64,000 nucleotides of DNA from Gammaproteobacteria bacterium (GTDB lineage: Bacteria; Pseudomonadota; Gammaproteobacteria; Xanthomonadales; Wenzhouxiangellaceae). The notes under the pieces were generated by a model. It ran no database searches and was not told where the DNA came from. It was given only the letters and a program-made list of their open reading frames with translations. Of this stretch, positions 19,915 to 33,322 are shown piece after piece. The translations under genes and the position numbers were made by a program. Numbering within the stretch: position 1 is the stretch's first letter; each line of letters starts with the position of its first letter. The DNA lies in NCBI GenBank assembly GCA_003565625.1, contig PXBD01000069.1, positions 1 to 64,000 of the forward strand, in the 5' to 3' direction.

Positions 19915-22137
19915 ATGAACGGATATCGCAAGTTGCCGCTGGCGGCGGCCATTTCGCTGGCCCTGGCGGCCCCTTTGGCGGCACTCGCCCAAGCGGCGCC
20001 GGAAGACATCGAGGATCGCATCCAGGTAATGGCCGACCCACTCGGCGACCGCGGCCCCGATGACCTGGTTCGGCCGGTCAGTATCGTGGTTGGCGAAGAA
20101 CTCGAGCGTCGCCGTGCGGCCACCCTGGGCGAGGTGCTGGACGGTCTTCCCGGTGTCGCCAACTCCGACTTCGGGCCCGGCGTGGGCCGCCCGGTGGTGC
20201 GCGGCCTGCAGGGCTCGCGCGTCCAGGTTCTCGAGGACGGCATGGGCACTTCAGATGTGTCGCGCGAAGGTGCCGACCATGCCATTGGGATTGATCCGGC
20301 CCGCGCTGAGCAGGTCGAGGTATTTCGCGGGCCGGCCACGCTGCTCTACGGCAGCGGCGCCGCCGGCGGGGTGGTCAACGTGGTTACGCGTCGCTTTGAC
20401 CCGGATTTTTCTGACGACCTGCGCGTCGATGGGCGTTTCTCATACGGCTTCAACGGCAACGACAAGCAGGGCCGACTGGGTCTCGAGGCGCCGCTGAGTA
20501 ACGAGTTCGTGCTCCGCGCGGACTACAACATCCGGCGCACCGATGATTTCGATATCAATGGATTCCAGCAGGTGGGCCAGACCGCCGGTAACGAAGATAC
20601 GCTACGCATCAGCAGCATCGATACCGATTCGGCTTCGCTCACCGGTCTGCTGCGCGGTGACTGGGGCTTTTTCGGACTCGGGGTGAGTTATTGGGATACC
20701 GACTACGGCATTCCCGCCAATTTTGACGCCCGGCCGCGCGATCTCGGTGGTCAGAGTGACGACTTCGAGCGCGTGGTTGCCGACTCTCTTCGCTTTGATC
20801 TTCGGGGTGAATGGCTCGAACCGTTGCCCGGGTTCAGCGCCGCTCGCCTGAAGATGTCCTACACCGACTTCGAGCAGGAAGAGGCGGAATTCGAATTTAA
20901 TCGCAGTCCTGAAGGCGGTTTCCTGGACGAGCGTGTGGTCGAGGCCGACTTCGACAACAAGGAATGGGACACTCGCCTGGAACTGGTGCACGACCCGATC
21001 GCCAACTGGCGTGGCGTGGTCGGCCTGCAGTACACCGACCGTGACTTTTCCGCCGATGATCCCCGGGGCGCCGATCGCGGCTTCTACGTGCGTCCCAACG
21101 TGACCCGTACCCTGGCTGGTTTCGTCCTGGAAGAACTGCCAACCAACTTCGGCCGGATCGAGTTGGGCGCGCGCGTCGAGCGGGTGCGCTCCAACCCCGA
21201 AGATGTGATCGGTTCGCGCGTTCAGGGCATCACCCAGGCCGACGGCAGCTTCCTGGCCCTGCCCGAACGTCTGGATACCCAGAGCTTCACCCCGTTCAGC
21301 CTGTCGGCCGGTGCGGTGTTCGAGATTGGCAGCGATTACCATGCCCGCGCCATGGTCACCCGCGCCGAGCGTGCGCCCTCACCGGAGCAGCTGTTTGCCT
21401 TTGGCCGTCATGCTGCCGCCGGCACGTTTGAGGTCGGCGACCCGAACCTGGACAAGGAGGCCTATACCAACTTCGAACTGGGATTCGACCGCCACGCCGG
21501 CCCGTTCCGGTTTGACGCCACCGCCTTCTACAATCGGGTCAGCGATTTCATCTTCCTGGCCTCCGAAGACGACGGCACCGGCAACCCGGTCGGCGTTAAC
21601 GATATCGGCAATCGCGCCGGCGAGGGTGCGGCGGCCGGCTGCGAGCCCGGCGCTGGTAGCCTGTGCCGACTGCGCAACCAGTTGGTGATCAACCAGCAGG
21701 CCAATGCCGAGTTCTACGGCGTGGAATTCGAAGCCATTTCCCAGGTAGCCACCGGGCGTATTCCGCTCGACCTGCGGGTGAGTGGTGACTACGTGCGCGG
21801 CAAGCTGCGAAGCGGTGACAATCTGCCGCGCATCAGCCCGATGCGTCTGGGCCTGGGGGCCGACACCAGCTTTGGTGACTGGGATCTGTCGATCGACTTT
21901 CAGCGCGTGTTTCGCCAGACCAACGTAGCCGAGGCCGAGTCCGAAACCGGCAGCTACAACCTGGTCGGCTTCGACCTGTTCTGGACCCCGGTGCTGTTCC
22001 GCAACGCCCAGGTGTTCCTGCAGGGGCGCAACCTGCTCAACGAGGACGGCCGTCGCCACCAGAGCTTCTTCAAGGAAGACGCGCCCATCATCGGCCGTTC
22101 TTTCACCACCGGGCTGCGCTTTCAGTACGGCGGTTGA
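19915..22137 (+). CDS. znuD: TonB-dependent outer-membrane receptor, ZnuD-like (zinc)
   Basis: Outer-membrane beta-barrel of 740 residues for TonB-driven uptake. Signal peptide at 1-27 (cleavage near ALAQA), then the plug domain: IQVMADPL region, LGEVLDGLPGVANSDFGPG, RPVVRGLQGSRVQVLEDG with a following SDVSREGADHA, and EQVEVFRGPATLLYGSGAAG, which closely resemble ZnuD-type zinc receptors. The barrel ends with the aromatic-terminal strand TGLRFQYGG. A zinc-rather-than-iron assignment rests on the plug resemblance (including the HA after EGAD) and the Zur-like box 35 bases upstream. AGGAGCAATTC precedes the ATG as the ribosome site. A hairpin terminator follows the stop. Confidence 0.85.
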   Translation: MNGYRKLPLAAAISLALAAPLAALAQAAPEDIEDRIQVMADPLGDRGPDDLVRPVSIVVGEELERRRAATLGEVLDGLPGVANSDFGPGVGRPVVRGLQGSRVQVLEDGMGTSDVSREGADHAIGIDPARAEQVEVFRGPATLLYGSGAAGGVVNVVTRRFDPDFSDDLRVDGRFSYGFNGNDKQGRLGLEAPLSNEFVLRADYNIRRTDDFDINGFQQVGQTAGNEDTLRISSIDTDSASLTGLLRGDWGFFGLGVSYWDTDYGIPANFDARPRDLGGQSDDFERVVADSLRFDLRGEWLEPLPGFSAARLKMSYTDFEQEEAEFEFNRSPEGGFLDERVVEADFDNKEWDTRLELVHDPIANWRGVVGLQYTDRDFSADDPRGADRGFYVRPNVTRTLAGFVLEELPTNFGRIELGARVERVRSNPEDVIGSRVQGITQADGSFLALPERLDTQSFTPFSLSAGAVFEIGSDYHARAMVTRAERAPSPEQLFAFGRHAAAGTFEVGDPNLDKEAYTNFELGFDRHAGPFRFDATAFYNRVSDFIFLASEDDGTGNPVGVNDIGNRAGEGAAAGCEPGAGSLCRLRNQLVINQQANAEFYGVEFEAISQVATGRIPLDLRVSGDYVRGKLRSGDNLPRISPMRLGLGADTSFGDWDLSIDFQRVFRQTNVAEAESETGSYNLVGFDLFWTPVLFRNAQVFLQGRNLLNEDGRRHQSFFKEDAPIIGRSFTTGLRFQYGG

Positions 22138-23807
22138 TCGACTCCAGACCCTCCGTCGGATGAGTCCGACCTTGTGTACCCGGCTCCTCGCGAGCCGGGT
22201 TTTTTTTCGCCGAAATCGGCCTGCAGCCAGTGTCGCAGCTGGTCCATGCCCGCTGCCGGGCCCGGATATTCGGGCAGCAATCCGTCCCTGAACCCGCGTG
22301 CACGAAACGGTTGCAGGAGTTCCGGGTCGGCGGCGATGACGTGAACCGGGACAGCGGCGCTGGGCTCGCGGCCGGTGATCAGTGAAGCCGGCTGATGGTC
22401 GCCGAGCAGAATCAGCAAGGTGTTTTCGTCCACGAAGTGGCGGGCGTAGTCGAGGCTGACGTGGACGGAGTATTCCACGCTGCGGGCATAGTGATTGCGC
22501 AGCCGTTCGATGTCCTGCCACAGGCGTTGCGGAGCTTCGCCGGCATCGCGCCAGCGCTCGAACAGCGCGCCGTCGCCGATGGTCTTCCAATTGGGCTCCA
22601 GATCGATCACCGGGGTCCACGGCGCGTGGCTGCTGATCAGCGCGATCTGGGCAAACAAGGGCCCGGACGCCGCGGGTCGTAATTCGTGTTCGAAGTGATG
22701 CAGGGTGAACTGGTCGGGCATGGTGACCCAGTTCAGCGGCGGTCCGGCATAGTCCAGGCCGGCGGCCGGATACACCCGGTCAAAACCGTATTGATCGCCC
22801 TCGGGCCAGGGTCGGATGATGGCCGGCATCACTGCAACCGTCTCATGCCCGGTGGCGCGGAAATCATCGACCAGGGTGGTTCGGTGCGAATCCAGCAGCA
22901 ATCGGTACCAGAGCTGGTTGTCGATCCACTCCCCGCTCAGCGCGGTGGCGTGGGCCAGCCACGACTGGCCGCCGCGAATCGGCGCCTTGACCAGGCCGCT
23001 GACTGCCTTCAGGCCGGCGTCGGCCAGGACGGGCTCCATGGCTTGCAGTCTCGGCTCGACGATGGCGCGGTAGTTTGCGTCGTCGAATACGGTCACGCCG
23101 TAGGATTCGATGAACACCAGCAGCACGTCGAGGTCAGCCAGCGCAGGCAGTGGCGTACCCGGCTGCCGCGCGTCCGGTGATTCGGCGGCGAATTCCAGGC
23201 GGGCCTGATGGGCCGAGCGGATCTGGTCGGACTGAAAGGCCAGCGTGTCCCAGGCCGGGGTGCGCGCTGCGGTCCACGAAGACGTCCCGGTCAGGTCCAG
23301 CCAGAATGCGCCCAGGCACACGGCGGCCAAGGCGAAGGCGATGGCTCGCGCCGGGGTCGATGATTGCAGCCGCCCCGGCCGCAGCGCGCGCGCCAGCAGC
23401 AGCGTCAGGGCCAGCAGCGCCAGCCCGACCGCCACGGTGACGGCTACGGCACCGGCCCGGCCGATGTTGCCGTCGAGCAGGTTGAAGCCGGCGCTGATCA
23501 GGATGATGTCGAAATAGGCGTTCAGCGGCCGACTGAGGACCTGGTGGGTGGCGCCGTCGCCGATACCGAACACGAACGCAACCAGCAGCATGATGACGAC
23601 CACCCAGCGCAGGGCGCGGGTCCATCGGGTATCGGGCAGAGCGGCAAAGGCGGCGACCAGCACCCAGGCCTCCCAGGCAATCCAATAGCCGGCTTCCATG
23701 CCGAAGCGCAGCCACAGCGGCCCGACCAGAAGGAAGTTGGCAATCATGCCCCAGACCAGAAGCGCCAGCGATGCCCGGCCCGGGGTGGGCGATGAATTCA
23801 GGAGCAT
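22122..23807 (-). CDS. Membrane sulfatase-like (alkaline phosphatase superfamily) enzyme
   Basis: Polytopic protein of 561 residues with the architecture of LTA-synthase/phosphoethanolamine-transferase-like enzymes: about five N-terminal membrane helices (to residue 175) and a periplasmic sulfatase-fold domain. Catalytic marks: metal ligand Glu in VLLVFIESYG near 235, the nucleophile region RGGQSWLAHATALSG near 280 and LLGDHQPAS near 500 with the metal-binding Asp-His. Such enzymes transfer phospho-groups from lipids to envelope glycans or hydrolyse sulfate/phosphate esters; the substrate is open. ATG 23807 is chosen because the helices start right after it; the ribosome site is weak. Its last 16 bases overlap the 3' end of znuD. 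Confidence 0.8.
   Translation of the reverse strand: MLLNSSPTPGRASLALLVWGMIANFLLVGPLWLRFGMEAGYWIAWEAWVLVAAFAALPDTRWTRALRWVVVIMLLVAFVFGIGDGATHQVLSRPLNAYFDIILISAGFNLLDGNIGRAGAVAVTVAVGLALLALTLLLARALRPGRLQSSTPARAIAFALAAVCLGAFWLDLTGTSSWTAARTPAWDTLAFQSDQIRSAHQARLEFAAESPDARQPGTPLPALADLDVLLVFIESYGVTVFDDANYRAIVEPRLQAMEPVLADAGLKAVSGLVKAPIRGGQSWLAHATALSGEWIDNQLWYRLLLDSHRTTLVDDFRATGHETVAVMPAIIRPWPEGDQYGFDRVYPAAGLDYAGPPLNWVTMPDQFTLHHFEHELRPAASGPLFAQIALISSHAPWTPVIDLEPNWKTIGDGALFERWRDAGEAPQRLWQDIERLRNHYARSVEYSVHVSLDYARHFVDENTLLILLGDHQPASLITGREPSAAVPVHVIAADPELLQPFRARGFRDGLLPEYPGPAAGMDQLRHWLQADFGEKKPGSRGAGYTRSDSSDGGSGVDQPPY
22178..22207 (+). terminator. Rho-independent terminator of znuD
   Basis: ACCCGGCTC and GAGCCGGGT form a 9-base GC-rich stem around a 5-base loop, followed immediately by a run of T (22200-22207). 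It lies 41 bases after the znuD stop and inside the 3' coding end of the convergent sulfatase-like gene. Confidence 0.88.
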
Positions 23808-23898
23808 CCGCGCATGGTGACATGAGCGACTCCGAAGCCTGCGTGAAGCCAGGGCCTGGCCCACCCATTGCACCGGCGGCCACGCTACTATCGTTGGC

Positions 23899-24657
23899 GT
23901 GTGGACCTACCTTAAAAGTCGCTACGGCCTGCTGCGTTCCCTGGTGATCTATCGCCGGCCCTTCCGCCAGGCTGGCCTGCGGCGCTTCTACCGGCCTTTT
24001 ATCGGCCCAGGCGACCTGGTGTTCGATATCGGAGCCCATCTGGGTGATCGCAGCACTGCTTTTGCCGCACTCGGTGCCAGGGTGATAGCGCTGGAGCCGC
24101 AGCCACAGCTGTTTGCCTGGCTGCAGCGGCTGGCCGGGCGGAGTGATCAAGTGAGCTGCCTGGCCCTGGCAGCGGGCGCAAGTCCGGGCCGGATGGAACT
24201 GGCCGTCAGCCGGGTCAATCCCACCGTGGCCAGCCTGTCGAGGCGTTGGCGGGAACAGGTCGTGCGCACTCAGCCAGGGTTCGCCGGGATCGACTGGGAT
24301 GCCAGTTTCGCCGTCGAAGTGGTCACGCTCGACCAGCTGATCGAGCGCTACGGTGAACCGGTGTTCTGCAAGATCGACGTCGAAGGCTTCGAGGCCGACG
24401 TCCTGGCCGGGCTGTCGCGAGCGCTGGAAAGCCTGTCGGTGGAATTCGTCCAGGGCGCGCTGGATCAGGCGCAGGCCTGCGTGGATCGACTGGAAACACT
24501 GGCGCGCTACCGCTACCAGGTTGTGGCCGGCGAGAACCGGCGGTTTCATTTCTCCGCCTGGCGCAAGGCCCGGTCGATCCGGCACTGGCTGGATCACGGG
24601 GCGGACGGGCTGGCCTCGGGCGATCTCTACGCGCGGCTTGGCGATCGGTTACCGTAG
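23899..24657 (+). CDS. FkbM-family methyltransferase
   Basis: SAM-dependent O-methyltransferase of 252 residues. The SAM site is VFDIGAHLGDRSTAFAALGA near 37, followed by VIALEPQPQLFAWLQR; the FkbM-typical later block is VTLDQLIERYG, with FCKIDVEGFEADVLAGL near 160, whose KIDVEG is the family hallmark. FkbM enzymes methylate hydroxyls of polyketides, glycans and other natural products. The start is GTG 23899 (MWTYLKSRYG). It is seven bases upstream of the creatininase gene and clearly co-transcribed with it, which ties it to the GTP-cyclohydrolase/PTPS gene cluster. Substrate unknown. Confidence 0.85.
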   Translation: MWTYLKSRYGLLRSLVIYRRPFRQAGLRRFYRPFIGPGDLVFDIGAHLGDRSTAFAALGARVIALEPQPQLFAWLQRLAGRSDQVSCLALAAGASPGRMELAVSRVNPTVASLSRRWREQVVRTQPGFAGIDWDASFAVEVVTLDQLIERYGEPVFCKIDVEGFEADVLAGLSRALESLSVEFVQGALDQAQACVDRLETLARYRYQVVAGENRRFHFSAWRKARSIRHWLDHGADGLASGDLYARLGDRLP

Positions 24658-24664
24658 TCGTCTG

Positions 24665-25450
24665 ATGATCCATTCCTGGCAGCACCTCACCTCCCCCGAA
24701 CTGGCCCGGCTTGCCGGCCCGGACGCACTGGCGGTTCTGGTCCTGGGCGCGATCGAGCAGCACGGGCCGCATCTGCCGCTATCGACCGACCTGGACATTG
24801 CCAATGGCTTGCTCGATTTGGCGTTGCGCGAACTCGACCATGATCTGGACATTTTCGTGCTGCCACCGCTGGCCCTGGGCGCCAGCGATGAGCACGCCGG
24901 TTTTGCCGGCACCCTGTCGTTGTCCGCCCGGCAAATGCATCGCCAGCTCCAGCGCATCGGCGCCGCGGTGGCGCGCGTGGGTATCCGGCGCCTGGTGCTG
25001 GTCAACGCCCACGGCGGCAATATCGGCTGGCTGGGTCCGGCCGCGCTGGCCTTGCGCCAGCGGCATCAACTGCTGGTAGTCAAGGCCAGCTACATGAGCT
25101 TCCAGGCCCCGGCTCATCTGCTGGGTGCCGAGGAGTTGCGCCTGGGCCTGCACGGCGGGCAGGCCGAAACGGCCATGATGCTGCACCTGCACCCCGAACG
25201 GGTTCGTACCGAAGCGCTGGATGTGTTCGATTCGGTGGCCTCCGGAGATTCGCCCGAGGCGATGGTCGGCCCGGAGGCTGAAGCCGCCTGGGCCTGGCTG
25301 GCCGAAGATCTGAACCCGGGCGGCGTGGTTGGTAATGCGGTTGCTGCCAGTGCCGAACAGGGTCGGGAACTGGTGGCTTTCTACGGCCAGAAACTGGCCC
25401 GGGTGCTGCGCGAGACGGCCGCGACAGGCTTGCCCGGCTGGGAAGCGTGA
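24665..25450 (+). CDS. Creatininase-family metal-dependent amidohydrolase
   Basis: Binuclear metal amidohydrolase of 261 residues. Metal-binding residues are conserved: EQHGPHLPLSTDLDIA near residue 28 (Glu, His, Asp), NAHGGN near 120 and HGGQAETAMML near 165. The family includes creatininase, mycofactocin protease MftE, and the archaeal formamide hydrolase ArfB, which removes the formyl group from the first pyrimidine of archaeal riboflavin/F420 biosynthesis. With a GTP cyclohydrolase II gene next to it, a role on a pyrimidine or pterin intermediate is an attractive inference. ATG 24665 begins seven bases after the methyltransferase stop. It converges on ribA with 17 bases between. Confidence 0.88.
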   Translation: MIHSWQHLTSPELARLAGPDALAVLVLGAIEQHGPHLPLSTDLDIANGLLDLALRELDHDLDIFVLPPLALGASDEHAGFAGTLSLSARQMHRQLQRIGAAVARVGIRRLVLVNAHGGNIGWLGPAALALRQRHQLLVVKASYMSFQAPAHLLGAEELRLGLHGGQAETAMMLHLHPERVRTEALDVFDSVASGDSPEAMVGPEAEAAWAWLAEDLNPGGVVGNAVAASAEQGRELVAFYGQKLARVLRETAATGLPGWEA

Positions 25451-25467
25451 GACCGCGGCCTCAGTCC

Positions 25468-26598
25468 TTACTTGTTTGCGGAGTTGAGTACTTCGTCCAG
25501 CAGATGGCCGGAACGGCTGGCCTTGGCCGATAGGTAGCGGTGGTTTTCCGAGGTCAAGCGGCCAAACAGTTTCTCGCGCCCGGCTACCTCGATCCCGCCT
25601 GCGGCCAGCGCCCGCAGCTTGGAGGGGTTGTTGGTCAGCAGGCGCACCCGCTGGATGTTCAGCGCGGCCAGCATGTCGACCGCCACGCAGTAGCGCCGCT
25701 CGTCTTCCCCAAAGCCCAGGATCTGGTCGGCATCGACGGTGTCGTGGCCCTGGTCCTGCAGCGTGTAGGCGCGCAGCTTGTTGGCCAGGCCAATACCGCG
25801 GCCTTCCTGGGCCAGGTACAACAGGACGCCGCCGCCCAGCCCGTCGATGGTTTTGACCGCAGAGCGTAATTGCTCGCCGCAGTCGCAGCGCAGGCTGCCG
25901 AACAGGTCGCCGGTCAGGCAGGCCGAGTGCAGTCGTACTGGCACATCGACCGGCCACCGGGCCGGGTCGCCGATGACGACCGCGACGTGTTCACGCAATC
26001 CGTCGGGCTCGCGGAACAGCACGAAACGAGCCTGGTCGACATCGGCCAGCGGCACGCGCGCCTCGCTGACGCGTTTGAGCAGGCCCGAGGCCAGTTCGAA
26101 ACAATGCTCGGCCGCGCGCGCCGAGACGGTCAGCAAGGCGCCGCTGTCGATCTGGGTCTGCAGGGCCCGGCGCTGGCGTTGGTTCAGGCGCAGGGTCATG
26201 GCGGCCGGAATCAGCAGGGCTCGCCGCATCAGGGCCAGGGCCGCGCGCTCGGCCACCGTGGCCGGATGCGGGTCTCCGAACAGCTCACGATCCAGCGGCG
26301 CATCCTGGCTGGCCGCGCGCAGGATCGCCGCGACAGCCGCGCCGGCAGCCGCTGGCTGCAGCGGCAGGGCCGCGCAATCACTGCGCGGGTTCAGGCCCAG
26401 GCACTTGAGACGGTGACCGGTCAGGACAAGATGGCCGGCAGCCTCGTTGGCCAGCCCGGCCAGTTCTTCGTCTGCCAGGCCCTCCACCGGCTGTACCAGC
26501 ACGCTGGGAGATGGCGTGCCTGGCGGGCTTTGGTCATCGTCAATCACAACCGCCACGCCGCGGCGCAGGTCGAAGATGGCTCGTTCGGTCTGATGCAT
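25468..26598 (-). CDS. ribA: GTP cyclohydrolase II fused to a degenerate RibB-like domain
   Basis: The C-terminal half (about 185-376) is a complete GTP cyclohydrolase II, which opens GTP to a 2,5-diamino-pyrimidinone ribosyl phosphate: zinc Cys ligands in CLTGDLFGSLRCDCGEQL, phosphate loop QEGRGIGLANKLRAYTLQDQ, catalytic DER in GEDERRY and RLLTNNPSK. The N-terminal half starts like 3,4-dihydroxybutanone-phosphate synthase (ERAIFDLRRGVAVVIDDD) but the acidic catalytic loop expected next (DRENEGD) is replaced by QSPPGTPSPS, so this half should be inactive. No other riboflavin genes are nearby. It is divergent from a RibD-like reductase gene, with 92 bases between them. I infer that it feeds a dedicated pathway, not bulk riboflavin synthesis. 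Confidence 0.9.
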   Translation of the reverse strand: MHQTERAIFDLRRGVAVVIDDDQSPPGTPSPSVLVQPVEGLADEELAGLANEAAGHLVLTGHRLKCLGLNPRSDCAALPLQPAAAGAAVAAILRAASQDAPLDRELFGDPHPATVAERAALALMRRALLIPAAMTLRLNQRQRRALQTQIDSGALLTVSARAAEHCFELASGLLKRVSEARVPLADVDQARFVLFREPDGLREHVAVVIGDPARWPVDVPVRLHSACLTGDLFGSLRCDCGEQLRSAVKTIDGLGGGVLLYLAQEGRGIGLANKLRAYTLQDQGHDTVDADQILGFGEDERRYCVAVDMLAALNIQRVRLLTNNPSKLRALAAGGIEVAGREKLFGRLTSENHRYLSAKASRSGHLLDEVLNSANK

Positions 26599-26690
26599 TG
26601 GCGCAGAAATCTAAAAATTCAAGGGTACTACGCTACGGTGATCAGAAGGTTGAGGATGTGAAACACGCCCGAATTGGCGACAATCGCGGG

Positions 26691-27524
26691 ATGGAACGCT
26701 ATTCGACGGTTTGGGAGGCCTTGCTCGCCGCGCGTGAGTTCGACTGGTCGGCAAAGACATCTCATCGGGTCATGGTGGGGCGATCGGCGCTGGAGTTGGG
26801 GGCCGACGGCCAGTGGCAGGCTGATCGGCCGCTGGCGGCCGAAGATGCCCTATTGCTCGATGCGTTGCTGCCGCTGCTGGCCGGTCTGGATGGCATGGTC
26901 GTCGGGCAGCTGGGCCAGAGCCTCGACGGGCGCATCGCGACCGCCAGCGGCGATTCCTGGTACATCAACGGTCCGGTGGCCCGGTGCCATCTGCATCGCC
27001 TGCGGGCCCTGGTAGACGCGGTAGTGATCGGGGCGGGCACGGCCAGCGAAGACCAGCCCCACCTGACCGTTCGCCACGTGTCGGGGCAGGATCCGGTGGC
27101 GGTCATCCTCGACCCGCGCGGTCGAGTGCCGACCACGGGCCCATTGTTCGAGCGCTTGCCGGACGCGGCGCCGGTTCTGCATCTGGTGGCCGAAGGGGTC
27201 GACCCGGGTTCGGCGCCGCCTGGTGTTGAGCGCTTGTCCCTTCCGGCCACCCCTTCCGGGTTCGACCCGCGGCTGGTCGTGCGGCGCCTGGCCGAGCGTG
27301 GCCTGCGGCGGGTGTTGATCGAAGGCGGTGGGGTTACGGTGTCGCGCTTTCTCGAAGCCGACTGTCTCGACCGCCTGCACCTGCTGATTGCGCCGCTGAT
27401 CATCGGCTCGGGCCGGCCCGGTTTGCAGCTCGAGCCGATCCAGCGCCTGGTCGAAGCGCGGCGGCCGCCGATTCGCGGTCATGCCCTCGGCGATGAGCTA
27501 CTGGTGGACGTGCTTCTGCGCTGA
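26691..27524 (+). CDS. RibD C-terminal-type reductase (DHFR-like fold)
   Basis: Stand-alone homologue of the reductase half of RibD, which reduces the ribose of the pyrimidine intermediate to ribityl; 277 residues without the deaminase domain. Marks: GQSLDGRIATASGDSWYING near 85, LRALVDAVVIGAGTASEDQP, LDPRGRVPTTGPLF, the NADPH-binding RVLIEGGGVTVSRFLEA and LIAPLIIGSGRPG. ATG 26691 is used; GTG 26658, with a purine-rich stretch upstream, would add 11 residues. An unusual 65-residue N-terminal extension precedes the fold. Divergent from ribA and overlapping the flippase-like gene by 27 bases tail to tail. It may act on the RibA product in the same pathway. Confidence 0.84.
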   Translation: MERYSTVWEALLAAREFDWSAKTSHRVMVGRSALELGADGQWQADRPLAAEDALLLDALLPLLAGLDGMVVGQLGQSLDGRIATASGDSWYINGPVARCHLHRLRALVDAVVIGAGTASEDQPHLTVRHVSGQDPVAVILDPRGRVPTTGPLFERLPDAAPVLHLVAEGVDPGSAPPGVERLSLPATPSGFDPRLVVRRLAERGLRRVLIEGGGVTVSRFLEADCLDRLHLLIAPLIIGSGRPGLQLEPIQRLVEARRPPIRGHALGDELLVDVLLR

Positions 27525-28415
27525 AGGTCGCAGTAGCAGCACGATGGCGCCGGGCAGGCTGGCCAGCAGCACCAGCAAGCCGTAGGCGATGGCGGCGGCA
27601 ACGCCTTGCTCCGGCGGCAAGCCGCTGAGCAGCCAGATACCGGCGGCAGCACCCTCGCGCAAGCCCCAGCCGGCCACCGACAGCGGAATCAGCATGGCCA
27701 GCAACACCGGCAGGGCCAGCGCCATGCCCGTGGCGATGTCCAGATCCAGCCCGATGCCGCGGGCGGCGAGGGCGAATACCAGCAGGTAGCTGAGGACGAT
27801 CAGTACCGAACTGCCCAGCTGCACGGGCCAGGCGGTGCGCGCCAGCAGGGCCTTGTCGATGTCCTGGCCGACGATGGCGAGCAGCGGCCGCCAGCGTCGG
27901 CGCAGCAGGTAGGCCACGAGTGCCAGCAGCAGCGGCAGACTCAGCCCCAGCCCGTGGCGGCCGGTCCAGGGCAGGGCGCTCAGCGCCTCCCGCCATGGCG
28001 GGTACGCCAGCAGGGCCAGCACGGCCAGCAGCGCGACGACCAGCTGCCCCGAAGCGCGCTCGAGGATGACGGCGCGCCAGGCCGGTCCGAGGCGCCCGCT
28101 GGCTTGGGCGTGGCGCTGGGCGCGCCAGGCGTCACCGATCACGCCGCCGGGCATGACCTGGTTGACGAAGCCGGCCAGGTAGTAATCCGCCAGCGCTCTC
28201 TTCGGGCTCAGCTCAAGCCCCAGGCGGCGGGCGGTAAAACGCCAGCGCCACGCCGACAGTGCAGTCTGCGCAGTAGCCGTGGCCAGCGCCAGCAGCAGCC
28301 AGACCGGATGGATGTCGGCGATCTCGGCGGCAATGCGGGCCGGGTCCAGCCACAGCGCCAGGGCACCGAGCACGGCCAGGCTCAGCGTCCAGCGCAGCCA
28401 GAGTCGGGTCCTCAC
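27498..28415 (-). CDS. Flippase-like membrane protein (LPG-synthase TM / UPF0104 family)
   Basis: Polytopic inner-membrane protein of 305 residues with about eight helices, of the lysylphosphatidylglycerol-synthase TM-region family (COG0392). Family marks are the loop NQVMPGGVIGDAWRA near residue 90 and the late SVAGWGLREGAAAG near 250, plus a helix-rich end (GLLVLLASLPGAIVLLL). These proteins flip or handle lipid-linked substrates in several glycolipid systems. It is the last of four overlapping genes: its ATG overlaps the stop of the methyltransferase gene (28412-28415). That coupling to a glycosyltransferase suggests transport of a glycosylated product, which is inference. Confidence 0.85.
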   Translation of the reverse strand: MRTRLWLRWTLSLAVLGALALWLDPARIAAEIADIHPVWLLLALATATAQTALSAWRWRFTARRLGLELSPKRALADYYLAGFVNQVMPGGVIGDAWRAQRHAQASGRLGPAWRAVILERASGQLVVALLAVLALLAYPPWREALSALPWTGRHGLGLSLPLLLALVAYLLRRRWRPLLAIVGQDIDKALLARTAWPVQLGSSVLIVLSYLLVFALAARGIGLDLDIATGMALALPVLLAMLIPLSVAGWGLREGAAAGIWLLSGLPPEQGVAAAIAYGLLVLLASLPGAIVLLLRPSAQKHVHQ

Positions 28416-29275
28416 CGTGGCGGGAGGGCCAGCACGTCAACGTGGCCCACCTGCACCATCCGTCGCGCGCCCGCCAGGTCGGCCTGCCGTCGCTGGTGCC
28501 AGGCATTGATGCGGACGGATGCTGCGGGCGCCTGTTCGAGGGCCGCCTGGTGCCAGCCGGCCAACAGTTCCCGGCCCAGCGCCAGGCTGGGCGCATCTGT
28601 GCAGTCCAGCCGCCAGTCGCTGGCTTGCAGGCGCACATCGAAGCCGTGTCGGGCCAGGCTTTGGCTCAGCCGTTGTCCGGCCTCGGGGCCGAGGGCGCCA
28701 CCCAGGCCCTTGTCGCGGCGCTGATGCTGATTGAAGATATCTTGCATGTATTGGTCTTCTTCATCATCGATCATGCCGCCATCATGGTCTAAAAATCCGC
28801 GCCGGCCATCGACGCTGAGGACGAAAAGGCAGGCCGCGCGGGCCGCGGCGCAGGCGGCGCTCAGGCGCTCGATCCACGCAGCCGAGACCAGGTCGAAAAA
28901 CGCTGCCGCCGTGACCAGATCGGCTTGGCCGATCCAGGGCAGGCTCGAGTCGGACAGGTCGGCTTCGACCGTGGTCACGCTGAACTCGTCAGCCGGCGCC
29001 GGCACTATCGTGCGGGCCTGTGACCGGGCGCGGGCGAGCAGGCTGGCGTCGTGGTCGACCAGGGTCCAGTGCTGTGGCCGGGGCAGGCGCGGTGCCAGCC
29101 AGCGCAGGTTGCTGCCGGTACCGGCGCCCAGGTCGACGATTCGCAGGCGCCGGCCGTTCCGGGTGCGCGCCAGGACAGCAGCCAGATCCTCGAACAGCGC
29201 CTCGGACCGGGCGGCGTGATCGGCCGGCTCGCGCAGGCTCAGCCAGTCGGCGGCAAACACCTGGTGCCCGCTCAT
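28412..29275 (-). CDS. Class I SAM-dependent methyltransferase
   Basis: Rossmann-fold methyltransferase of 287 residues. Motif I is IVDLGAGTGSNLRWLAP near residue 46; WTLVDHDASLLARA follows with the acidic residue that binds the SAM ribose; DLVTAAAFFDLVSAAW is motif IV. The C-terminal half (WRLDCTDAPSLALGRELLAG, HVDVLALPPR) is not one I can place. It overlaps the glycosyltransferase gene by four bases (29272-29275) and the flippase-like gene by four (28412-28415), so all are made from one message. A small-molecule substrate in the same pathway is likely; the exact target is unknown. Confidence 0.83.
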   Translation of the reverse strand: MSGHQVFAADWLSLREPADHAARSEALFEDLAAVLARTRNGRRLRIVDLGAGTGSNLRWLAPRLPRPQHWTLVDHDASLLARARSQARTIVPAPADEFSVTTVEADLSDSSLPWIGQADLVTAAAFFDLVSAAWIERLSAACAAARAACLFVLSVDGRRGFLDHDGGMIDDEEDQYMQDIFNQHQRRDKGLGGALGPEAGQRLSQSLARHGFDVRLQASDWRLDCTDAPSLALGRELLAGWHQAALEQAPAASVRINAWHQRRQADLAGARRMVQVGHVDVLALPPR

Positions 29276-30342
29276 GTCTGCTCCAGGGCCAGCGCAAAAA
29301 GCCGGCCGCTGTCGGCCCAGCTCGGCAGGTGCGCGCGCACCCGAACCGCCGCCGCGGTCAAGTCCCGACGCAGCGACGGCTCGCTCATCCAGCGCGCGAT
29401 CGCGGCTTGCAACTGCTCGGCATCGCCGGGCGCGACCTGGAGTCCGGCGCCGTCCGGCAAGGTATCGGCCAGGGCACCACCGCTGGTACTGATCACCGGC
29501 AGGCCGCGCGCCAGCGCTTCGGTCACGACCATGCCGTAACCCTCGTAATGCGAGGGCAGGACGCAGACCGTGGCCCAGGCGTAGTCGTCGGCCAGTTCGG
29601 CCTCGTTGCGCTCGCCAGGCAGTTCAACCCGATCGCCCAGCCGGACATTCTTGATCTGCGCCGTTATCCGGGCGGCGAAGGCCCGATTCCGCTCGGCCGA
29701 TCCGCTCAGGCGGCAGCGCCAGCCGCCTGGCGCCAGCCTGGAGAGGGCATTGAGCAGCACGTCCTGGCCCTTGCGCGGGGTCAGGCTGGCCACGCACAGC
29801 AGATGTTCTTCGCCCGGCTGCGGTGCCTCGCCCATGCGGGCCCGGGTCGCCGGTGCCAGTTCGGCCGCCGCCACGCCGGGTTCGACGACGCAGGCCGGGT
29901 GGGTGCTCAAATCGAGTTCAACCAGGCGGCGCGCGGTATAGGCGCTGGTGACGATGATGCGGCGGCACAGGGCCAGCGCCCGGCGCTCGCTGCCCAGCAA
30001 CTGCAGACGGTCTTGCTCGTTCAGGCCGGTTTCATCGCTCAGCGGATGATGGACCAGTGCAGTGAGATCCAGCCGGTCGGCGTGGGCGGCGACGGCTTCG
30101 GGCACGGCGCCCAGCGCCAGGCCGTCGATGACGACCGCGGCACCGGCGGGCAGGGCGCACAGGGCCGCATCCATGGCCTCAACCGCCGTCTCATCGGCCA
30201 GCGGAAACCGCCCGTCCAGCCCGAACACATCGACCTTCCGGCCCAACTGCCTCAGTTCCTCGACAATGCGGCGATCGTAGAGATAGCCGCCGGTGCGCTG
30301 ATCCGGGTCGCCCGGGACGATCAGGGTCAGAGGCTGGCTCAA
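29272..30342 (-). CDS. GT4-family glycosyltransferase
   Basis: Retaining GT-B glycosyltransferase of 356 residues. The start is TTG 30342: GAAGG lies six bases upstream, and the TTGA overlaps the stop of the PTPS-like gene; no ATG fits the N-terminal strand [11 protein letters not shown]. Donor-side marks in the C-terminal domain are [17 protein letters not shown] near 205 and the sugar-nucleotide-binding [20 protein letters not shown] near 285 with the E-x7-E motif. The N-terminal [13 protein letters not shown] is typical of GT4 acceptor domains. Sugar and acceptor are unknown; the PTPS-like and methyltransferase genes on either side suggest a pterin-like or pyrimidine acceptor (inference). 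Confidence 0.86.
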
Positions 30343-30737
30343 AGCGGGCCTTCGTAGCTGGCCCAGGCGATGTGGGATTCCTTCAGGCTGACCTTGAGCC
30401 CGCTCAAGCCCGATGCTGCCGGACCGAGGCGGCCGTCTTGCACGGCCTCGGCCAGGCGGTCGAAGATCACCCGGGCCATAAACTCGGTGGTCGTGTTGCG
30501 GCCGTGAAAGGTTTCGATCTCGTCGAGATTGCGGTAGTTGTAGTCGGCCAGGATCGCGCCCAGGACCTGGCTGGCCAGGCCGATGTCGACGATCAGATCG
30601 TCCTCGTCCAGTTCCGGGCGGCGAAAGCTGGCGTCGACCACGTAGGTCGCGCCGTGCAGTTTTTGCGCCGGGCCGAAGATCTCGCCGCGGAAGCTGTGGG
30701 CGATCATAAAATGGTCGCGCACGGTCAGTTCGTACAT
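30339..30737 (-). CDS. Divergent PTPS/QueD-family protein with altered active site
   Basis: Member of the 6-pyruvoyltetrahydropterin synthase/6-carboxytetrahydropterin synthase fold, 132 residues. The family shape is clear: IAHSF carries the first zinc His, KLHGATY the second, then [19 protein letters not shown] with the substrate Glu, and KVSLKES near the end with the pterin-anchoring Glu. However, the canonical C-x3-HGH is here AQKLHGA, so the catalytic Cys and the third zinc His are gone, and the D-H of the LDHH block reads DYNY. A standard QueD or PTPS reaction is therefore unlikely. First gene of the four-gene overlapping unit. Confidence 0.82.
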
Positions 30738-30776
30738 GAATCAACTCCTGTTGTGAATATCGGAAAAACCCCTTTT

Positions 30777-30848
30777 AACCGCAGATGATCGCAGATAAAC
30801 GCGGATAGAACCCCAAAAAGCATTTGGGTTTTTTATTCATCTGCGGTT
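30777..30848. repeat. Inverted-repeat element with 10-base internal repeats
   Basis: AACCGCAGATGA (30777-30788) and TCATCTGCGGTT (30837-30848) are perfect 12-base inverted arms 72 bases apart end to end. The left arm continues as three 10-base units built on CGCAGAT (the last reads CGCGGAT). The centre holds the CCCAAA/TTTGGG hairpin. Elements built on GCAGAT units occur as dispersed repeats in many proteobacteria, so this is probably a REP/MITE-like element; copies elsewhere cannot be checked here. Confidence 0.65.
30812..30834 (+). terminator. Hairpin with T-run inside the repeat element
   Basis: CCCAAA and TTTGGG pair around AAGCA and are followed by six T on the + strand. No + strand gene ends upstream, so it is not the terminator of a neighbouring gene; it may be intrinsic to the element or attenuate antisense transcription into the dehydrogenase gene. 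Confidence 0.45.
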
Positions 30849-31856
30849 TCAAGGTTTCCAATCTTGTCCGTAGACGATGCGATGGCACAGCACTTCGCCG
30901 CTGGCCTCGGCCAGGCGCGGCATCAGTGCCGGCAGCTCCTCGAACCGGCTTTGGCCGCTGATCAGGCAGTCCAGGTCCGGTTCGAGCAGCAGTTCCAGGG
31001 CCTTGACCAGCCGTCGGCGATAGGTCCAGCGCGCGCGCCGGTCGGCCGGCAGCTGGCCGACCTGGCTGGAAATCAGCTTCAGGCGCCGGGCATGGAAATC
31101 TTCGCCCAGGGGCACGGTCGGTGCGGCGTCGCCGAACCAGCTGGCTTCGACCACCCTGGCCTCCCTGCCGGCGCAGGCCAGTGCGGTGCTCAAGCCCGCG
31201 GCGCTGGCGCTGGTGTGGATGATCACATCCTGCTCGGTCGGGGCGGCGTCCGGCGCGGCAAAATCGACGCCCAGACGGGCGGCGATCTGCGCTCGCTGCG
31301 GCTGCAGGTCGACCAGGGTCACTTCAGCGCCGGGGATGCGCCCGGCCAGCCAGGCGACCAGGCAGCCGACCACGCCGGCACCGATCACGCAGACCCGGTC
31401 GCCGGGCCCGATCCGCGCATCCCAGACCACGTTGAGCGCGGTTTCGGTGTTGGCCGCCAGCACCGCGCGCTCGGGCGGCAAGCCTTCGGGCAGGGCAATG
31501 ACGGCGTCGGCCGGCACCCGGTAGCGATCCTGGTGCGGATACAGGCAGAACACCTTGCGGCCCAGCAAGTCGTCCGGCCCGTGTTCGACTTGGCCGACGC
31601 TGGCATAGCCGTACTTTACCGGCGCCGGAAACTCGCCGTCCTGGAACGGCGCGCGCATGGCCTGGTACTGGCTGGGCGGCACTCGCCCGCTGAACACCAG
31701 CGCCTCGGTGCCGCGGCTGATGCCGCTGTAGCGCGCGCGCACCAGCACTTGCCCGGCCTGGGGCAAGGGCAGGTTTTCCTCGCGCAGCGTGCCGCGGTTG
31801 GGGGCTTCGACCCAGAAGGCCCGGGCCGTCGTGTGTGAATCAGAGCTTGCGTTCAT
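30849..31856 (-). CDS. Medium-chain dehydrogenase, BchC-like
   Basis: Medium-chain dehydrogenase/reductase of 335 residues. The N-terminal GroES-like domain has YSGISRGTEALVFSGRVP, in which Ser replaces the usual catalytic-zinc Cys, as in BchC-type enzymes (SGISxGTE). KYGYASVGQVEHG and GRKVFCLYPHQDRY follow; the Rossmann fold is DRVCVIGAGVVGCLVAWLAG near 150. The four-Cys structural zinc loop is absent. The start is ATG 31856 (MNASSDSHTTARAF). It is the first gene in this direction and is separated from the PTPS-like gene only by the repeat element, so the five genes may be one unit. Substrate: an alcohol or ketone in the same pathway (inference). Confidence 0.82.
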   Translation of the reverse strand: MNASSDSHTTARAFWVEAPNRGTLREENLPLPQAGQVLVRARYSGISRGTEALVFSGRVPPSQYQAMRAPFQDGEFPAPVKYGYASVGQVEHGPDDLLGRKVFCLYPHQDRYRVPADAVIALPEGLPPERAVLAANTETALNVVWDARIGPGDRVCVIGAGVVGCLVAWLAGRIPGAEVTLVDLQPQRAQIAARLGVDFAAPDAAPTEQDVIIHTSASAAGLSTALACAGREARVVEASWFGDAAPTVPLGEDFHARRLKLISSQVGQLPADRRARWTYRRRLVKALELLLEPDLDCLISGQSRFEELPALMPRLAEASGEVLCHRIVYGQDWKP

Positions 31857-31958
31857 GCCGGAATGATCGCCTGTGCGGGTACATGCCAGGGTGATTGTGC
31901 CGCAGCCTGAAGACCGCCGTTGACGCGCGCTTACAGCTTCGGCTGGCATGGTGAGCGC

Positions 31959-32735
31959 ATGACGAACCAGGCCCGACTCGAACCGGCTCAAGAATTCGGA
32001 CCCGCACAGGGGCCGCTGGGCGGCGGTGTGCTTGCCTGGCTGTGGCCGGCGCTGGCGCCGCTGGGCGCAGGCTTGCTGCTGCTGGCAGCGGGCGCTGACT
32101 GGCGCGTGATGCTGGCCGGGCTGGTCCTGCATGTCTCGGTCACCCTGTTGCTGGCTCACCAATGGCGAAGCCGAGCGGCCCGTTTTGGTTTGGCCAGCCA
32201 GGTCACCCTGGCGCGCAGCGGCCTGGTCGCGGTGCTGGCCGCCGCGCTGCTGCAGCCGGCGCTCTACCAGGAACTGGGCTGGTGGCTGGCGGGCCTGGCA
32301 TTGGCCGCCCTGGTTCTGGACGGCGTTGACGGCTGGCTGGCGCGACGCTTCGACGAGGCCAGCGATTTCGGGGCGCGCTTCGATATGGAAGTCGACGCCG
32401 CGCTGATCCTGGTGTTGTGCCTGGGCCTGATGGCGGCTGGAAAAGCCGGGGCCTGGGTGCTGGCCATCGGCCTGATGCGCTATGCCTTTGTCGCCGCGGC
32501 TCAGGTACGGCCGTGGCTGGCGGCACCGTTGCCGCCCAGCTTCCGGCGCAAGCTGGTGTGCGTGTGGCAGGTGGCCGCGTTGTTGATCTGCCTCACGCCC
32601 GTCATCGGTCCGGCGCTGGCGACCCCGATTCTGGCCTCGGCTATGGCCCTGCTGGTCTGGTCGTTCTGGCTCGACCTGGCCTGGCTGAAGCAAAACGCCG
32701 CATCCCATCTTTCAAGACTGGAGAATGACTCATGA
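31959..32735 (+). CDS. CDP-alcohol phosphatidyltransferase family membrane protein
   Basis: Integral membrane enzyme of 258 residues that joins a CDP-linked donor to an alcohol acceptor. The complete signature DGxxAR-x8-GxxxDxxxD is present as DGWLARR...GARFDMEVD near residue 122, with all Asp that bind the two metals. About seven helices surround it. ATG 31959 follows GGTGAG. It is divergent from the BchC-like dehydrogenase, with about 100 bases between, and overlaps the yceI-like gene by four bases (ATGA). Whether it makes a phospholipid for general use or a lipid anchor for the neighbouring pathway's product cannot be told. Confidence 0.86.
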   Translation: MTNQARLEPAQEFGPAQGPLGGGVLAWLWPALAPLGAGLLLLAAGADWRVMLAGLVLHVSVTLLLAHQWRSRAARFGLASQVTLARSGLVAVLAAALLQPALYQELGWWLAGLALAALVLDGVDGWLARRFDEASDFGARFDMEVDAALILVLCLGLMAAGKAGAWVLAIGLMRYAFVAAAQVRPWLAAPLPPSFRRKLVCVWQVAALLICLTPVIGPALATPILASAMALLVWSFWLDLAWLKQNAASHLSRLENDS

Positions 32736-33322
32736 AATTCAGGACTCTCGCCGTCGCGCTGTGCGCGACCACTTTGTTTGCTGCGACACTCGGTTCGGCC
32801 GAGCCGCGCGAATTCCAGATCGACGCTGAGCACTTCTCGGTCGGCTTCCTGGTCGGCCACATCGGTTTCAAGCACCAGCTCGGGATGTTTCTGGAGGCAA
32901 GCGGCGAGTTTGTCTGGGACGAAGACAACAATGAGCTGCACAGCGGCGAGGTGTTGATCCAGGCCGACAGCGTCTTCACCAATCACGATCGCCGCGACCG
33001 GCACGTGCGCAGCCGCGATTTCCTCCACGCCCGCCGCCATCCGGAAATCCGTTTCGAGGCCACATCCTGGGAGCCGGCCGGTGCCGACAGCGGCACCCTG
33101 CGCGGAGACCTGAGCCTGCGCGGCCAGACTCACCCGGTCGCGCTCGACGTGACCATCAACCGCAGGGCCGAATACCCTTTCGGCCATGAGCAATACACGG
33201 TCGGCATGTCGGCCCGCACCGTCATCCAGCGCAGCCAGTGGGGCATGAGCTATGCGCTGGAGGACGACCTGGTCGGCGACGACGTGCAGCTGATCCTGGA
33301 GTTCGAGGCGATCGCGCAGTGA
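32732..33322 (+). CDS. YceI-family periplasmic lipocalin-like protein
   Basis: Periplasmic beta-barrel of 196 residues that in the family binds isoprenoid or other long-chain amphiphiles. Signal peptide with cleavage near LGSAEP; then IDAEHFSVGFLVGHIGFKH, the NHDRRDRHVRSRDFLHARRH block, PEIRFEATSWE, and LRGQTHPVALDVTINR, all YceI hallmarks. The late RSQWGMSYALEDDLVGDDV is also standard. A 4-base overlap with the CDP-alcohol phosphatidyltransferase gene suggests a joint role with a lipid-linked compound. No metal site is apparent. Confidence 0.9.
   Translation: MKFRTLAVALCATTLFAATLGSAEPREFQIDAEHFSVGFLVGHIGFKHQLGMFLEASGEFVWDEDNNELHSGEVLIQADSVFTNHDRRDRHVRSRDFLHARRHPEIRFEATSWEPAGADSGTLRGDLSLRGQTHPVALDVTINRRAEYPFGHEQYTVGMSARTVIQRSQWGMSYALEDDLVGDDVQLILEFEAIAQ

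Follow-up and report, generated by a model that had tools for sequence, protein, structure and literature searches.

A conserved gene cluster around a PTPS-IV protein, separate from riboflavin synthesis and retained in genomes of about 1 Mb

We analyzed a 64,000-nucleotide stretch of DNA (here called the window; positions 1 to 64,000 of contig PXBD01000069.1, assembly GCA_003565625.1) from a gammaproteobacterium of the family Wenzhouxiangellaceae, whose 2.8 Mb genome is in 95 contigs and 89.5% complete. Twelve neighboring genes at 22122-33322 could each be assigned to a named family by a profile search of the window proteins. A first-pass annotation had taken these twelve as one coherent set. 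All are present, and eight form a conserved core, whereas RibA, creatininase, FkbM and sulfatase fall outside the minimal set as defined by loci from bacteria with genomes of about 1 Mb. The evidence strongly supports the view that the genes form one coherent and conserved pathway, separate from that of riboflavin synthesis. The genes, with core or accessory status judged by those small-genome loci, are as follows.

22122..23807, minus strand: membrane sulfatase-like protein (PF00884, 31.6 bits); accessory
23899..24657, plus strand: FkbM-type methyltransferase (PF05050, 55 bits); accessory
24665..25450, plus strand: creatininase-family amidohydrolase with motif residues intact (PF02633, 203 bits); accessory
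25468..26598, minus strand: GTP cyclohydrolase II with a degenerate DHBP-synthase-fold N half, RibA (PF00925, 185 bits); accessory
26649..27524, plus strand: RibD-type reductase without deaminase (PF01872, RibD_C, 120 bits); core
27498..28415, minus strand: flippase-like LPG_synthase_TM protein (PF03706, 134.5 bits); core
28412..29275, minus strand: class I S-adenosylmethionine methyltransferase (PF13649, Methyltransf_25); core
29272..30330, minus strand: GT4 glycosyltransferase (PF00534, Glycos_transf_1); core
30339..30737, minus strand: PTPS-IV, a T-fold protein without the QueD cysteine and the last zinc histidine (PF01242, 83.8 bits); core
30849..31856, minus strand: BchC-like medium-chain dehydrogenase, apparently zinc-less (weak ADH_zinc_N match, below cut-off); core
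31959..32735, plus strand: CDP-alcohol phosphatidyltransferase (PF01066, CDP-OH_P_transf, 60 bits); core
32732..33322, plus strand: YceI-family protein (PF04264, 131 bits); core in part of the range

The dehydrogenase, PTPS, GT4, methyltransferase and flippase-like genes form a minus-strand block, and the CDP-alcohol transferase and YceI genes a plus-strand one. Overlapping genes had been claimed and are indeed present: 4-base overlaps occur at three junctions (flippase/methyltransferase, methyltransferase/GT4 and CDP-alcohol transferase/YceI), and the RibD-type reductase gene converges on the minus-strand block with a 27-base overlap with the flippase gene. The FkbM and creatininase genes run in the same direction, 7 bases apart, and the cluster RibA and sulfatase-like genes each stand alone on the minus strand.

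Scanning 84,980 species yielded at least 588 confirmed PTPS-related loci, of which we analyzed the best 80; being the top-scoring ones, these favor the window's sequence. By record title they come from gamma-, beta- and alphaproteobacteria, Actinomycetota, Gemmatimonadota and Acidobacteriota. The dehydrogenase and PTPS were each found in all 80 loci, GT4 and the methyltransferase in 79 each, the CDP-alcohol transferase in 70, the flippase in 60, RibD in 49, creatininase in 45, RibA in 41, YceI in 21, FkbM in 18 and sulfatase in 14; iterated profiles gave the same counts, except for sulfatase (13). Some of these absences are contig ends, since 16 of the 80 loci are shorter than 20 kb. Dehydrogenase, PTPS, GT4 and methyltransferase follow one another on one strand in 77 loci, with the flippase included in 58; the series from CDP-alcohol transferase to RibD is seen in 32, and the full eight-gene series in 15. 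Order here means order among the twelve searched families, between which other genes may intervene (gaps of 1.9 kb in L067 and 4.3 kb in L086), and all gaps are below 1,000 bases in 74 of the 77. The three exceptions end with a contig (L062), lack GT4 (L088) or are rearranged (L102). The genes are therefore not neighbors in this genome only, as their order is kept in genomes of several phyla.

The strongest new fact is that the pathway is retained whole in very small genomes. In a class sample of 276 genomes at least 90% complete, to which the window's own genome was added, PTPS was found in 13, two of them of 1.0-1.1 Mb. The family of these two has PTPS in 18 of 25 genomes and in all 11 near-complete members (at least 90% complete, at most 5% contaminated). 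RibD, flippase, methyltransferase, GT4 and PTPS are present in all 18 small-genome loci; the dehydrogenase, CDP-alcohol transferase and YceI are present in 17, the eighteenth being cut by a contig end. The order and orientation of this eight-gene block are the same as in the window. No match to RibA, creatininase, FkbM or sulfatase was found in the 10-20 kb read at each of the 18 loci, and because RibA and creatininase are missing there, the pathway may start from the ordinary riboflavin precursor. One PF00925 protein, in open frames of 362-367 residues, lies elsewhere in nine of the 11 near-complete small genomes, and none was found in the other two; rhodopsin is present in nine of the 11. 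In size, base composition and rhodopsin these genomes resemble SAR86-type bacteria, to which the family may belong. Though outside the minimal set, RibA (41) and creatininase (45) outnumber YceI (21) in the 80 loci.

Co-occurrence, which the first-pass annotation had proposed as a check, was also seen among related genomes. We counted presence anywhere in 61 related genomes, own included and some incomplete, with cut-offs of E<=1e-56 for RibA, E<=1e-40 for creatininase and E<=1e-20 for the dehydrogenase. PTPS is present in 21 of the 61. Among these 21, and with Fisher P values that ignore relatedness, the dehydrogenase occurs in 20 (3 more without PTPS; P 6e-12), high-scoring RibA in 19 (5 more without PTPS; P 2e-9) and high-scoring creatininase in 19 (3 more without PTPS; P 9e-11). 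The four genes largely come and go together across these relatives, and a one-contig relative (G026, locus L116) shows the same gene order. RibA and creatininase are on a different contig from PTPS in three genomes (G006, G020 and G023), and the creatininases are distant from the cluster in a fourth (G054). Of the discordant genomes, four (G001, G003, G013 and G014) are 63-84% complete and three more, G005 (93%), G019 (99%) and G022 (96%), are split over 110 to 460 contigs; a RibA relative without PTPS is seen in G048 and G057, both complete. A RibA of the degenerate-RibB type lies at 8690-10084 of L122, in a complete genome without PTPS.

The claim that this is not a riboflavin operon stands. 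In the profile search RibE, RibH, RibB and the RibD deaminase were not found among the cluster proteins; all are present in a complete operon, nrdR-ribD-ribE-ribBA-ribH-nusB, elsewhere in the genome on contig G000:C40. This separate set rules out a riboflavin operon identity for the cluster. The genome has two PF00925 proteins, the cluster RibA and the ribBA of contig 40, and neither the cluster ribA nor its reductase is the organism's only copy, as further copies lie in that operon.

PMC5445326 gives FGPAQ as the signature of PTPS-IV, a subfamily of COG0720. Across the window and the 80 loci FGPA is found in 81 of 81 rows and the Q in 80, which places these proteins in PTPS-IV. In all 81 rows the QueD cysteine is replaced by alanine (A24), as is the last histidine of the HGH motif (A30), and H14, H28, E85, E120, S121 and H122 are kept; E85 and E120 are positions that we take to bind the ring. 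"Altered PTPS/QueD protein" was thus an apt description. Identity with QueD, the 6-carboxytetrahydropterin synthase, is excluded by the lost CxxxHGH motif and a score of 42.4 bits against a cut-off of 89.25, and we suggest that genes of this clade annotated under that enzyme's name are probably misnamed. In the small genomes the motif takes several forms, FGPAK, FGRAQ and FGKAA among them; A, T or V stands in place of the last histidine, and all 17 loci that hold the TTTE stretch keep its glutamate. The sole strong solved relative is 3D7J (SCO6650 of Streptomyces coelicolor), which scores 204 bits against the window PTPS family profile, the next structure scoring 26.6. Its paper reportedly describes a protein with a pterin-type pocket that lacks zinc, a catalytic triad and PTPS activity.

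The best solved relative of the RibD-type reductase is 6p8c, a diaminopyrimidine reductase named for the compound before deamination, in keeping with the absent deaminase and with a PTPS-fold protein that retains E85 and E120. In the dehydrogenase, S47, G49, E51, K81, G83 and Y84 are present in 80 of 80 rows, and SRGTE and KYGY stand at the sites of ligands in zinc enzymes; the enzyme is called zinc-less from what are presumably the zinc-ligand positions of medium-chain dehydrogenases. BchC identity was ruled out (51.3 bits against the bchC equivalog cut-off of 291.25). An inverted repeat at 30777-30860, between the PTPS and dehydrogenase genes, reads by eye AACCGCAGAT... and ...ATCTGCGGTT; it resembles a dispersed intergenic repeat, and the tested pattern has one copy in the window.

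We built a concatenated tree of 100 loci with FastTree, rooted on a haloarchaeal locus with another PTPS type and labeled by phylum by hand. The 30 actinobacterial rows form one clade (support 1.0), so the pathway is old in actinobacteria, with some transfer. Seven small-genome rows and two Gemmatimonadota rows also form clades (support 1.0), the latter placed among gammaproteobacteria, and the two Acidobacteriota rows lie apart. Among plasmids, a PTPS match, in many cases a weak one, occurs in 28 of 72,556 records. Two Streptomyces plasmids (L107 and L113) carry a lone family PTPS near MEKHLA, cupin and BTAD regulator genes, with the rest of the pathway absent. On a Haloarcula plasmid (L111, 8981-12335) a dehydrogenase, a PTPS-family protein, a GT4 and a weak methyltransferase stand in cluster order, with a CDP-alcohol transferase and a creatininase nearby. 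The Haloarcula protein was not counted as PTPS-IV because it is distant (36% identity), lacks the FGPAQ signature and has a PHSHH motif instead; by its sequence, this row would represent a parallel pathway with another PTPS type.

The N half of the cluster RibA gave no PF00926 match in the profile search, and the best folds for its predicted model (mean pLDDT 84.0) are structures of RibBA, RibBX and DHBP synthase (TMt 0.60 for 3mgz). As this half models as a DHBP-synthase fold despite the lack of a PF00926 match, its earlier description as a dead RibB-like half is fair. When 4i14 and 6mnz are matched over the whole length, the root-mean-square deviations are 13.7 to 16.0, which makes the relative placing of the two halves unreliable. 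The protein exceeds the PF00925 and NF001591 cut-offs (185 and 225 bits), is just below TIGR00505 (196.6 against a cut-off of 205.85) and is far below NF006456 (324.6 against 464). Aligned with E. coli 2bz0, the window RibA keeps the zinc cysteine triad and the catalytic Tyr, Asp and Arg, which are also conserved in the family alignment; we assume these to be the zinc and catalytic positions of GTP cyclohydrolase II, including the numbering of Tyr105 in E. coli.

The residue equivalent to Tyr105 divides the 41 RibA proteins of the 80 loci into 21 with Tyr, 16 with Met, 2 with His and one each with Gln and Ile, the window RibA being of the Tyr type, as in E. coli 2bz0. All 20 non-Tyr loci carry a creatininase, which adjoins RibA in 17. 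The SCO6655 enzyme of Streptomyces coelicolor is said to make a formylated pyrimidine because Met replaces Tyr. In Sinorhizobium, BrbF (SMc02977), annotated as a creatininase, deformylates the formylated pyrimidine, according to PMC9478397. With this precedent, and with a creatininase in the non-Tyr loci, a formyl-retaining RibA paired with a creatininase-family deformylase would be a sound reading of the Streptomyces-type clusters. BrbF and ArfB both act on a formylated pyrimidine after GTP opening; those enzymes serve riboflavin, whereas the cluster creatininase fails the ArfB cut-off. The window RibA keeps the Tyr and therefore probably releases formate itself, which leaves the window creatininase without a clear task, although its residues E31, H33, D42, H116 and E168 are invariant in the aligned rows. 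In Halomonas halmophila the cluster RibA (L066, 14189-15397) has Ile for Tyr and SLLCDCG for SLRCDCG, and may be a decaying or altered enzyme. In the window's own assembly, the 3,150-base contig G000:C93 carries at its end (3017-3148, L120) part of a creatininase with 80% identity to that of the window, perhaps from a second strain in the bin.

GT4 keeps E263 and E271 in 79 of 82 rows. In 17 of the 80 loci GT4 and the methyltransferase form one reading frame with separate domains, and this fusion indicates that sugar transfer and methylation act close together, probably on one compound. The methyltransferase model (mean pLDDT 94.4) matches only generic class I methyltransferase folds. The CDP-alcohol transferase exceeds the PF01066 cut-off and has DxxDGxxAR...GxxxDxxxD, which we take to be the motif of CDP-alcohol phosphatidyltransferases; its nearest NCBIfam model is pgsA, at 40.5 bits against a cut-off of 109. 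Together with the flippase-like protein and YceI, it suggests an envelope destination.

Further recurrent neighbors, sought in 40 chosen loci of the 80, were few: an ABC ATPase type in 7, four families in 4 each and the CDP-alcohol transferase again in 8, having passed the overlap filter. OpgG-like and OpgH-like glucan genes were read near the cluster in 6 and 5 of these 40 loci (L024, L027, L028, L031, L036 and L057), and mdoH, for periplasmic glucan synthesis, is annotated near the Methylosinus cluster (L105, 9079-10881). Cytochrome b561 is annotated beside two plasmid loci; a link to the cluster is not supported, as none of the 80 loci matches those two proteins used as queries. In the window, a TonB-dependent-receptor-like gene at 19915-22137, identified by reading and not by family search, converges on the sulfatase-like gene with a 16-base overlap.

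We propose, with a probability of about 0.5, that these genes encode a dedicated pathway, here called the PTPS-IV pathway, that branches from the first riboflavin intermediate and leads to a methylated pterin-like or pyrimidine glycoside destined for the envelope. GTP would be opened to 2,5-diamino-6-ribosylamino-4(3H)-pyrimidinone 5'-phosphate, by the cluster RibA or, where this is missing, by the housekeeping enzyme; in Streptomyces-type clusters, a formyl-retaining RibA and a creatininase-family deformylase would share this step. The deaminase-less RibD reductase would then reduce the ribosyl chain with the 2-amino group kept, and PTPS-IV and the dehydrogenase would either modify the side chain or close a pterin-like ring. 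The same compound could receive a sugar from GT4 and a methyl group from the methyltransferase. Finally, the CDP-alcohol transferase may couple it to a phospholipid or similar carrier, with the flippase-like protein taking it across the inner membrane and YceI handling it in the periplasm. The first-pass proposal of a GTP-derived, glycosylated and methylated compound moved across the membrane fits the enzymes but is inferred.

Several points weigh against this proposal. Every substrate, every reaction and the product are inferred, and the roles given to the flippase, CDP-alcohol transferase and YceI are based on family names. RibD was not found in 31 of the 80 loci, including all 14 Streptomyces loci, and GT4 is missing in L088 and in the plasmid locus of Rhodobacteraceae SC52. 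There is no plain phosphatase among the eight core genes. The deformylase role is weakened by the Tyr-type RibA loci, 18 of 21 of which also carry a creatininase that this role leaves unaccounted for. The creatininase scores 122.5 bits with MftE (cut-off 172), 81 with the creatininase model and 24.9 with ArfB (cut-off 180), all below cut-off, and we rejected both mycofactocin MftE and ArfB as its identity.

The alternatives survive to different degrees. Riboflavin-like enzymes could have been repurposed to turn a sugar phosphate into an unusual glycolipid or glycan head group, nothing in which would derive from GTP. We regard this as rather unlikely. The most constant genes (dehydrogenase, PTPS, GT4 and methyltransferase) include no GTP-opening enzyme, RibA is missing from 18 of 18 small-genome loci, and GT4, the flippase and the CDP-alcohol transferase point to the envelope; against this, the cluster RibA retains the residues shared with E. 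coli and accompanies PTPS in 19 of 21 related genomes, and PTPS-IV keeps both putative ring-binding glutamates in 81 of 81 rows. That the product is a secondary metabolite or signal secreted for use in competition, and spread by horizontal transfer, seems to us quite unlikely. The pathway's patchy presence (21 of 61 relatives; 13 of 276 genomes in the class sample, counting the window's own), the plasmid-borne copies and the presence in Streptomyces would suit such a compound, but all 11 near-complete genomes of about 1 Mb carry PTPS, the single actinobacterial clade of 30 rows indicates that the pathway is old there, and the core order is the same across phyla. We find it harder still to credit a side branch of flavin or deazaflavin (F420-type) metabolism. 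A 2016 review ties PTPS-IV to archaeal F420 synthesis through unpublished work (PMC5041015), but by reading no F420 gene is among the few recurrent neighbors of the 40 loci, and the haloarchaeal relative is not PTPS-IV by motif. To our knowledge, a sugar transferase, a flippase and a phosphatidyltransferase have no place in F420 synthesis. Accidental neighbors or an assembly artefact, to which an assembly in 95 contigs might lend itself, have a negligible chance and are refuted by the conservation over 80 loci, the co-occurrence in 61 relatives and the same order in several phyla and in a one-contig relative.

Among known systems, tetrahydrobiopterin and pterin glycoside synthesis combine a PTPS-type protein, a reductase and a sugar transferase. 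The cluster differs from these in having a RibA-type rather than a FolE-type enzyme nearby, a PTPS without the catalytic cysteine, and extra lipid-type and flippase-type genes. Another known system is that of SCO6650 and SCO6655 of Streptomyces coelicolor: besides the match of the 3D7J structure, the 80 loci include 14 from Streptomyces, and all but one of these (13) have dehydrogenase-PTPS-GT4-methyltransferase with a creatininase and a Met-type RibA, which we take to be the type of SCO6655. We know of SCO6650 only as an orphan structure and of SCO6655 only as a formyl-retaining GTP cyclohydrolase, and of no pathway or product for either. SCO6655 is listed under riboflavin metabolism in PMC2853524, and SCO6652 appears in an expression table of PMC3610822. 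PF00925 and PF01872 were reported as PTPS-IV neighbors in 2017 by AGeNNT (PMC5445326); the accessible text of that paper has no occurrence of "glycosyltransferase" and labels PF00925 as FolE2, and GT4 and retention in small genomes are unmentioned there and in the accessible text of PMC5041015. No paper on the whole gene set, and none linking SAR86 with tetrahydropterin, was found in the literature searched, most subscription papers being outside its reach. The first-pass statement that this set has no described product therefore holds for the product and less so for the set, since the PTPS-IV subfamily, one structure and part of the neighborhood are already known.

The product has a fair chance of belonging to a new kind. 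As a tentative and on balance unlikely suggestion, it might be a hitherto unknown and widespread molecule of the envelope: a pterin-like (or ribityl-pyrimidine) glycoside, linked to or carried by a lipid, that might serve as a periplasmic redox or light-related cofactor and have a basic role in bacteria of about 1 Mb that mostly bear rhodopsin. The pathway would also provide a context for two orphan results: the structure of SCO6650 and the reportedly formyl-retaining SCO6655 enzyme. Its central genes are common to genomes of about 1 Mb and to Halomonas, Marinobacter, Streptomyces and Variovorax, and an eight-gene pathway in genomes of that size probably makes something basic that does not yet have a name.

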